Of a stretch of DNA of 64,000 nt, positions 33,104-35,525 are shown piece by piece. The DNA comes from Collinsella sp. An7. GTDB lineage: Bacteria > Actinomycetota > Coriobacteriia > Coriobacteriales > Coriobacteriaceae. Position 1 is the first letter of the stretch. Each line of letters opens with the position of its first letter. The stretch is taken from the NCBI RefSeq assembly GCF_002159335.1, contig NZ_NFHP01000002.1, positions 1-64,000 on the forward strand, written 5' to 3'. The translations under genes were made by a program, and so were the position numbers. The notes under the pieces were generated by a model. The model searched no databases. It was given only the letters and a program-made list of their open reading frames with translations, and was not told the origin of the DNA.

Positions 33104-33122
33104 ATAAAGACACTGTCTTTAT
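33104..33122. promoter_or_regulatory. Palindromic operator of the RHH-ABC operon
   Basis: Perfect arms ataaagaca and tgtctttat surround one central C, 10 bases before the start codon. The preceding tattataaag could be the -10 box. The protein encoded next begins with a RelB/DinJ-like DNA-binding domain, a family that binds such palindromes in its own promoter, so autoregulation is likely. Confidence 0.6.
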
Positions 33123-33132
33123 GGAGGTGACC

Positions 33133-34023
33133 ATGACTGCGACCACGCTCGTCAACTTTCGGCTCGACCAAGAGACCAAGCGCTCCATGGAGGGCATCTG
33201 CCGCGACCTCGGCATGAGCATGACCACGGCGTTTACGCTTTTTGCCAAGAAGGTGGATCGCGAACGGCGCATCCCGTTCGACGTCTCACTCGATGGCACC
33301 GCCGCGCCCGCCGCAGGGCAGCCGGTGACCATCGCCGCAAACCACGCTGACCCCGCCGTCATTGTCGAGGACGTCGTGCGCATCTTTGGTGAGGGAGCGG
33401 CGGAGCGCCGGGCGCTCGACGGTGCCTCGCTCACCGTGCGCCGGGGCGAGTTCGTCGCCATCATGGGCGCCTCGGGCTCCGGCAAGTCAACGCTGCTGCA
33501 CATTCTCGGCGGTGTCGATGCCGCCACCTCGGGACGCGTAGTTGTGGACGGCATGGACCTCTCGACGCTCGGCTCAGACGCCCTCGCGCTCTACCGCCGG
33601 CACACGGTTGGACTCGTCTACCAGTTCCACAACCTCGTGCCGTTCCTCTCCGCACGTGACAACATCGAGCTCCCCGTGCGCTTTGACGGTTCCCGACCAG
33701 ATTCCGCAACGGTCTCGGAGCTCTTGGAGCTGCTCGACATCGCGGACTGTGAGAAGAGCATGCCCTCGGAACTCTCTGGCGGTCAGCAGCAGCGCGTGGC
33801 CATCGCGCGGGCCCTCGTCTCACGCCCAGCCGTCGTTTTGGCCGACGAGCCCACGGGGAGCCTCGACCGCGCGAACGGCGAGAAGGTCGTTGAGCTCCTG
33901 GGGAGGGCACGCGAACACTTTGGCACCACCATCGTTCTGGTCACGCACGACGAGGACGTAGCGCACGCGGCAGACCGCATCGTGCGGATTTCTGACGGCC
34001 GAGTTATCAACGAAGAGGAGTAG
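33133..34023 (+). CDS. RelB/DinJ-like ribbon-helix-helix domain fused to ABC transporter ATPase
   Basis: ATG at 33133 has an ideal ggaggtgacc site, giving 296 residues. Residues 1-54 look like a complete RelB/DinJ antitoxin: TLVNFRLDQETKRSMEGICRD then LGMSMTTAFTLFAKKV and RRIPFDVSLD. After a short Ala/Pro linker, residues 74-296 form a MacB/LolD-type ATPase: Walker A GASGSGKST (112-120), Q-loop LVYQFHNLVPF, signature LSGGQQQR (214-221), Walker B VVLADEP (234-240) and VTHDEDVA. An in-frame GTG at 33325 behind caggg could also start the ATPase alone. No toxin gene is adjacent. The permease follows 2 bases later. Confidence 0.85.
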   Translation: MTATTLVNFRLDQETKRSMEGICRDLGMSMTTAFTLFAKKVDRERRIPFDVSLDGTAAPAAGQPVTIAANHADPAVIVEDVVRIFGEGAAERRALDGASLTVRRGEFVAIMGASGSGKSTLLHILGGVDAATSGRVVVDGMDLSTLGSDALALYRRHTVGLVYQFHNLVPFLSARDNIELPVRFDGSRPDSATVSELLELLDIADCEKSMPSELSGGQQQRVAIARALVSRPAVVLADEPTGSLDRANGEKVVELLGRAREHFGTTIVLVTHDEDVAHAADRIVRISDGRVINEEE

Positions 34024-34025
34024 CC

Positions 34026-35525
34026 ATGCTGCGCGCCTACCTTGCGAGCTACATCCGGCACAACCGGACCTCAGCCATCTCGCTCGCTGCGATCTCCTTC
34101 ATCGCTTCCGCGCTGCTCGGGCTCGTAATCGGTGTCTCTCAGATGGTCGTGACCGACTATCTTGCGCGCATGGACTACCTCGGCCAAACTCCAAACATCA
34201 CCGGCTCGACCATCGCCTTTGGCGTGGTGACGGCGATAGCCGCGGTCTCGCTCCTGCTCATGCTCAAAAGCGCCTTTGGCGTCTCGATGAGCGCACGCAT
34301 CCGGCAGCTGGGCATCTTGAAGTCGGTCGGCGCCAACGACGCACAGATCAGGCACCTGTTGCTTGCAGAGGGGTGTACGCTCTCGCTGCCTGCAGCGTGC
34401 CTTGGAGTGCTCACGGGCATGGGCCTCTCGCTCGTTCTCGTCGCGATCATCCTCGCCCTAACGGCCGAGAGCCGCGTTTACGAGCCTGTGATTGACCTCT
34501 CCCCCGTCACTGTGCTGGTGGGACTGTTCGTCGCCGCCGCGACGATCCTGCTCTCAGCGCTCCTCCCCGCCCGCAGACTCGGAAAGATCAGCGTGCTGAG
34601 GGCCATCTCCGAGGGCGACGACGAACCCGCAGCGGGGCGGCGCCCGGGCCCGCTCTTTCGCGTCCTCTCCAAACGGATGGGGATCGAGTCGTCGATCGCA
34701 TTCCAGTCCCTCCGCACCCGCAGGCACACCATGCGCACCGCCAACGCGTCGATTGCACTCGCCGTACTCGCCTTCGTAACGCTCATGAACGTCGAGACCC
34801 TCTCGCACCTCTCGACGCAAGTCACCTACTTCGAGCGCTATGACAGCGTCTGGGACGTGCGCGTGATCGTTGACGACGGGGCAGCCGACGGCGCGGACGA
34901 GGCGCTGCTCGGAGAGCTGCAGTCTTTGGACGGGGTCACTTCGGTCACACTGGGCGATGCGTACAAGGCAGACAGCGGCGACCTCTTCTACAACATCCTC
35001 GTGGATTCGCCGGCGGCGGAAGGCCGCGTAGCACGGACGCTTGAGGCGCAGCTTGCGGACGACAGGGGCGTCGAGGTGCTCAGCCTTTCCGAAGAGGCCG
35101 AGCGCGATGCAAGTGCTCGGGCGGGACTGAGACTCTTCGTAGACGTCTTTGCCGCCGTACTCGCCTGCATCGGCATCTCAGACGTATTCGCGAGCGTACT
35201 CGGTCGGATCCCCGAGCGACGCCGCGAGGTGGCACAGCTGCTCGCCGCGGGCATCACGCGCACACAGCTGCAACGGACCTTTACCCGAGAGTCCGTGCTC
35301 ATCGTGGCAAAACCGCTCGCATGGGCAATGGCGCTGAACATCGTGGTTGCCGTGCTTGCCGTGGAGGCAAGCCCCGTCACCTGGGGGTCCTTCCTTACCA
35401 ACATGCCCATCGCGCACGTAGCGGTGTTCGTCCTAACCTGCTGGCTGCTCGTGCGACTCGCCTACTGGCTGGGCGAGCGCCAGATTCTGCGAGACGGGGC
35501 GACGCTCGCAGTCGACCTGGCGTAG
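34026..35525 (+). CDS. FtsX-type ABC transporter permease
   Basis: This 499-residue protein has an N-terminal helix, two FtsX-like membrane blocks (about residues 60-195 and 365-490) with the RIRQLGILKSVGANDAQIRHLL motif, and between them an extracytoplasmic domain (about 270-360, WDVRVIVDDGAADGADEALL). It pairs with the preceding ATPase gene, 2 bases upstream, to make a MacB/BceAB-like transporter. Such systems remove antimicrobial peptides or signal cell-envelope stress rather than importing nutrients. The substrate is unknown. Confidence 0.8.
   Translation: MLRAYLASYIRHNRTSAISLAAISFIASALLGLVIGVSQMVVTDYLARMDYLGQTPNITGSTIAFGVVTAIAAVSLLLMLKSAFGVSMSARIRQLGILKSVGANDAQIRHLLLAEGCTLSLPAACLGVLTGMGLSLVLVAIILALTAESRVYEPVIDLSPVTVLVGLFVAAATILLSALLPARRLGKISVLRAISEGDDEPAAGRRPGPLFRVLSKRMGIESSIAFQSLRTRRHTMRTANASIALAVLAFVTLMNVETLSHLSTQVTYFERYDSVWDVRVIVDDGAADGADEALLGELQSLDGVTSVTLGDAYKADSGDLFYNILVDSPAAEGRVARTLEAQLADDRGVEVLSLSEEAERDASARAGLRLFVDVFAAVLACIGISDVFASVLGRIPERRREVAQLLAAGITRTQLQRTFTRESVLIVAKPLAWAMALNIVVAVLAVEASPVTWGSFLTNMPIAHVAVFVLTCWLLVRLAYWLGERQILRDGATLAVDLA

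Follow-up and report, generated by a model that had tools for sequence, protein, structure and literature searches.

The genome of Collinsella sp. An7 (2.37 Mb) carries a compact transporter operon in which the ATPase is probably also the repressor of its own synthesis. A single reading frame (33133-34023, forward strand, 296 amino acids) of the 64,000-nucleotide stretch analysed here, referred to as the window, encodes a ribbon-helix-helix (RHH) DNA-binding domain, a linker and an ABC ATPase, and is followed by a permease gene and preceded by a perfect palindrome (Table 1). We consider it likely, with a probability of about 0.8, that this two-gene operon is repressed by its own ATPase through binding of the fused RHH domain to the palindrome.

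Table 1. Coordinates of the operon's features in the window
Feature	Position	Strand	Remarks
-10-like hexamer TATTAT, running into the left end of the palindrome	33100-33105	+	orthologous operons have TAGAAT, GATAAT or GACAAT at this position
Candidate palindromic operator ATAAAGACACTGTCTTTAT	33104-33122		perfect, 19 bp, arms 9+1+9
Shine-Dalgarno sequence GGAGGTG	33123-33129	+	(A)GGAGG in the same place in orthologues
RHH domain, RelB/DinJ type, residues 1-55	33133-33297	+	DNA-contact residues N8, R10 and K16
Linker, residues 56-75	33298-33357	+	variable in length and sequence (sequence comparison)
ABC ATPase domain, residues 76-296 and stop	33358-34023	+	profile matches, sequence and fold relatives
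Permease, 499 aa, two FtsX modules	34026-35525	+	FtsX PF02687; about eight transmembrane segments

Two domains in one constrained reading frame

As delimited mechanically the open reading frame opens at 33082, and the true start is almost certainly the ATG at 33133, given the Shine-Dalgarno sequence that precedes it. The initial, sequence-only reading of this DNA had claimed a RelB/DinJ domain and a MacB-type ATPase in one frame and had suggested a profile search of the single protein, in which both domains indeed match: the RelB family of Pfam (PF04221) at residues 5-52 with 35.9 bits against a cut-off of 22.4, TIGR02384 (RelB_DinJ) with 53.8 bits against 45.65, and ABC_tran (PF00005) at residues 95-241 with 116 bits. 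The domain bounds of that reading are refined here to residues 1-55 and 76-296, and the front part corresponds to the DNA-binding half of RelB only, as the family match stops at residue 52-55 and the toxin-binding C-terminal half is absent. The ATPase is complete, with Walker A (GASGSGKST), signature (LSGGQQQR) and Walker B (VVLADEPTG) motifs, and, partnered by an FtsX permease gene, is of the LolD/MacB/YbbA kind; it reaches no named NCBIfam equivalog cut-off (LolD, 208.8 of 307.75 bits; MacB, 200.6 of 966).

The nearest solved relatives by sequence are DinJ (9lew) for the front of the protein and MJ0796, MacB and LolD for the back. An AlphaFold2 model consists of RHH helices at residues 13-26 and 30-44, a low-confidence linker at 46-66 and a confidently predicted ATPase, which in a fold search aligns to MJ0796, YbbA, MacB and LolD at Z scores of about 28-30 (MJ0796, 43% identity, Z 29.8). 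RHH domains are obligate dimers whose beta-strand forms in the dimer only. Because the fold-search list was filled by ATPase matches, the assignment of the front domain as an RHH rests on its sequence. The linker is flexible and has in-frame insertions and deletions among the fusions.

Across nine aligned fusion genes, mean pN/pS is 0.051 for the RHH domain, 0.162 for the ATPase and 0.446 for the linker. By this measure the RHH is under stronger purifying selection than either the ATPase or the linker, and as the most constrained part of the protein it contradicts the notion of a decaying relic. The same data bear on translation from an internal GTG at 33325 (codon 65), raised in the sequence-only reading, which would leave the RHH stretch untranslated or a separate decayed gene. 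The codon does exist, and normal ATPases begin close by, but this start is not conserved, the codon being CTG, CTA, GTC or CTC in most other fusions, the linker varies in frame, and a pN/pS of 0.05 means that the RHH stretch 5' of the GTG is translated; on the strength of codon non-conservation and selection we reject this start as most improbable. A sequencing or frameshift artefact separating the two domains, another circumstance that could have undone the fusion, is likewise rejected, as the in-frame fusion recurs in ten other genomes.

The permease, with a single extracytoplasmic region at about residues 260-365 and no match to the MacB-type periplasmic domain, lies 3' of the fusion in every inspected locus long enough to hold it, and no conserved neighbour was found beyond it in the loci inspected. 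Upstream of the operon in the window lie a DUF5714 protein (PF18978, 172 bits; 32466-33011, reverse strand) and a 1406-amino-acid surface protein (28090-32310, forward strand) whose tail, read by eye, is acidic and rich in Gly, Pro and Glu, whose C-terminus is hydrophobic, and whose HEYGH motif suggests a zinc metallopeptidase.

Distribution and a mobile unit

A search for the fusion across Coriobacteriia, proposed when the DNA was first read, found it in at least 11 genomes of Collinsella, Olsenella and Thermophilibacter, An7 included, which form a small set of gut bacteria. Besides An7, the hosts include Ca. Olsenella pullicola, pullistercoris and stercoravium, Olsenella sp. An270, uncultured Olsenella and Atopobiaceae, Collinsella sp. 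An307, an uncultured Coriobacteriaceae and Thermophilibacter provencensis, and over the front 71 residues the other fusions are 79-89% identical to the window protein. Outside Coriobacteriia, a sample of 396 genomes of the phylum yielded no RHH match at 1e-10, and a scan of 84,980 species representatives gave no fusion beyond the listed hosts, a result that divergent fusions could escape because the scan used two short peptide patterns. No relative of the fusion was found in the viral contigs searched, and among the matches listed in a plasmid search with the full-length query there were only ABC ATPases of less than 60% identity, the best alignments beginning at query residue 21 or later.

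By blastn the fusion loci fall into five genomic contexts. The principal block of homology shared between contexts starts about 27 to 38 nucleotides ahead of the ATG and stops at about +2245 to +2396, the end of the permease being at about +2390. From -100 to -50, loci of different contexts disagree at 0.74 of sites, the level of random sequence. Homology bounded at about -38 and at the permease stop defines operator, ATPase and permease as one cohesive unit, with the -35 element outside it, and makes the operator the sole upstream element conserved across all five contexts. The locus of Collinsella sp. An307 (L071) and that of T. provencensis (L072) are 99.3% identical over 2.9 kb of DNA (-249 to +2634 around the fusion start) despite the different families of their hosts, suggesting that the operon was recently transferred from one family to another.

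Copies of a 33-bp palindromic repeat, TGACTCATTGTARCCCCGTCCCAGAATGAGTCA, lie on both sides of the window operon (33057-33089 and 35592-35624), the upstream flank of the operon being a copy of it. The repeat folds as a hairpin and has eight copies in the genome with at most three mismatches, the others lying at window position 24235 and on contigs C1, C5, C15 and C16. It has the character of a dispersed REP-like element that may have aided insertion of the operon at this site; its dispersal leaves unsupported the idea that the flanking copies are an operon-specific insertion footprint. The same-genus genomes compared for an empty site differ from the window in gene order.

A probable antitoxin-like operator at the expected transcription start

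The 19-base palindrome noticed in the sequence-only reading lies exactly where it was placed, and its core, TAAAGACAnTGTCTTTA, is conserved in all 11 fusion operons read, perfectly in nine of them and with one mismatch in loci L067 and L096. By chance, perfect palindromes of this form should turn up about 0.5 times per 64 kb but only about 0.0005 times in any one 60-bp upstream region; the window holds one other, at 24074. The operator sequence itself occurs once in the 2.37-Mb genome, where the runner-up site has three mismatches. A consensus promoter scan left the TATTAT hexamer uncalled, and the window copy has a poor -35. Read by eye, the operator lies directly 3' of the -10-like hexamer, as in TTGACC-N17-GACAAT (L071) and TTGACG-N17-GATAAT (L070), and it also lies directly 5' of the Shine-Dalgarno sequence; adjoining both elements, it therefore covers the expected transcription start.

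This arrangement resembles that of relO in E. coli, where RelB protects positions -10 to +17, recognises [A/T]TGT[A/C]A hexads, and uses N5 and R7 as base contacts and K13 as a putative backbone contact (PMC2812701). The equivalent residues of the fusion are invariant. By inspection, TGTC is present on both strands of the operator, with a half-site spacing one base off that of E. coli relO. On sequence, then, the operator sits over the probable transcription start much as relO does.

The invariant contacts and the conserved palindrome also weigh on what else a fused RHH might do. It could serve as a dimerisation handle that pairs two ATPase subunits, its DNA binding a relic, as would suit an obligate dimer in a transporter that needs two ATPases and whose normal homologues lack the RHH and start at about residue 76. 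Such a handle does not predict a conserved palindrome, and with DNA-contact residues invariant and the operator the only upstream element kept in five contexts, we judge it unlikely. A similarly low probability attaches to the palindrome being a leader RNA hairpin or attenuator, or the site of an unrelated regulator, with the RHH acting elsewhere or nowhere. The RNA could form a 10-bp stem of -7.3 kcal/mol, but the z-score is only -1.3, and the transcript would lack most of the left arm because the expected transcription start falls inside it; moreover, there is no second site in the genome, and a stand-alone RelB relative has a nearly identical one.

That relative belongs to the closest stand-alone proteins, which are RelB-type antitoxins of 57-71% identity; a YoeB-like ORF, recognised by inspection, follows six of those inspected. 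Stand-alone antitoxins and fusion match through RIPF[DE]VS.D and then diverge, the former into a PFY... segment that is taken to be toxin-binding and the latter into linker and ATPase, which begins (about residue 76) where non-fused homologues start with MNILSVEHL.... The end of the RHH match and the position of the ATPase start thus indicate that an entire ATPase was placed behind an antitoxin's DNA-binding half. Upstream of stand-alone antitoxin L048 lies TAAATACAATGTCTTTA, which agrees with the fusion operator in 15 of the 16 arm positions (none of 300 shuffles was as good), and upstream of L047 both half-sites are present, farther apart. Both antitoxins have the strand LVNFR, as the fusions do; the half-sites are missing upstream of relatives with the strand MVNIR or TINIR, and the operators of most other stand-alone relatives differ from that of the fusion. 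This pairing of strand and operator is what co-evolution would look like, the numbers being small. In the explanation we favour, the RHH in all likelihood derives from the antitoxin of a RelB-YoeB-type pair. No toxin gene adjoins the operon, and the whole genome lacks any YoeB-family match, in agreement with the first reading. Its proposal that the operon represses itself is, at the level of sequence, strongly supported by an operator kept in five contexts, by selection strongest on the RHH, by invariant contacts, by the L048 operator and by a relO-like position. The poor -35, the one-base difference in spacing from relO and the unlike operators of most other stand-alone relatives count against it.

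Other reuses of the RHH were encountered in Coriobacteriia. MFS transporters of another family have a C-terminal RelB-like domain in one ORF (L076:728-3085, L079:636-2927, L075:2725-4755 on the reverse strand, L154 and L155), and in four of the five a YoeB-like domain follows it within that ORF (by Pfam on three). Their YoeB-like domains look changed in several cases at what we take to be the catalytic positions, by comparison with E. coli YoeB. Their RHH strand no longer has its Arg, and no inverted repeat resembling an operator was seen close upstream; these ORFs have the look of decayed toxin-antitoxin modules joined to an exporter, relics where the ABC fusion is the opposite. In a further architecture, widespread in Collinsella-like genomes, a RelB RHH precedes an MNT-type nucleotidyltransferase in one protein of about 165 amino acids (L077:2431-2928, also L078, L080, L081 and L082), perhaps an MNT antitoxin that brings its own DNA-binding part.

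Proposed mechanism and known systems

Starting from what is read directly, namely the fusion, the operator with its position and conservation, and the selection on the RHH, we infer binding, repression and release as follows. An RHH dimer would bind the palindrome over the -10 end and probable start, halting transcription of ATPase and permease. Since a double-FtsX permease should pair with two ATPase copies, one assembled transporter would carry one RHH pair, and the likely signal would then be the ratio of free to permease-bound ATPase or the state of the ATP-bound dimer. Free ATPase dimers would sit on the operator and repress; permease binding, ATP cycling or both would release them, and ATPase held at the membrane or otherwise shaped would leave the operator unrepressed. 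Such release would match ATPase to permease supply or transport demand, with the permease in the role that the toxin plays in RelB ratio sensing. This coupling, in which the ATPase shuttles between operator DNA and membrane permease and permease occupancy or the ATP cycle sets transcription, takes up the suggestion of the first reading that ATP binding or permease engagement could alter DNA binding; it is a tentative proposal, plausible from the architecture and distinctly less secure than self-repression itself.

By analogy, the closest functional counterpart of the fusion is PutA, in which an N-terminal RHH repressor domain is fused to proline dehydrogenase/P5C dehydrogenase and autogenous repression is combined with DNA/membrane switching (PMC5293562). 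Both are working proteins with a membrane-associated role and an N-terminal RHH by which each is, or would be, its own repressor, and PutA sets a precedent for one fused RHH protein doing both jobs; the catalytic parts are unrelated, the RHH here is of the RelB/DinJ type, and the switch that is known for PutA is proposed for the fusion. With RelB/DinJ antitoxins, above all those of RelB-YoeB (Txe) pairs, the fusion shares an RHH of up to 71% identity, DNA-contact residues, an operator over the transcription start and, in one relative, a nearly identical operator, whereas the toxin-binding C-terminal half is swapped for an ATPase and no toxin gene is adjacent. Like LolD, MacB and YbbA, it has a complete ATPase with an FtsX permease gene directly downstream; unlike them, it has an N-terminal DNA-binding domain and a permease with two FtsX modules.

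Transporter-dependent gene control normally uses a separate regulator, as BceAB does with BceRS. In these peptide-resistance modules a transporter of the same broad class is accompanied by a separate histidine kinase and response regulator (PMC10314905). If our inference is right, the transporter shares in the control of its own expression in both systems, but here the DNA-binding domain is inside the ATPase, and no histidine kinase or response regulator gene was seen, by inspection, among the ORFs from 31000 to 38500 of the window. A response-regulator-like ORF, also recognised by inspection, lies downstream in L071 and L072 and is absent from the other contexts listed. Many non-fused ATPase homologues have response-regulator-like or kinase-like ORFs upstream (by inspection), which suggests that a two-component system may have its substitute in the fused RHH. 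A search confined to open-access literature found no account of an ABC ATPase fused to an antitoxin domain or other RHH.

The operon would thus place a repressor, reused from a toxin-antitoxin module, inside the ATPase of a transporter, in a circuit of 2.4 kb that appears to move between genera as one piece. It would offer a minimal system for testing direct promoter readout of transporter assembly or turnover, and a concrete example of an antitoxin domain turned ordinary regulator.
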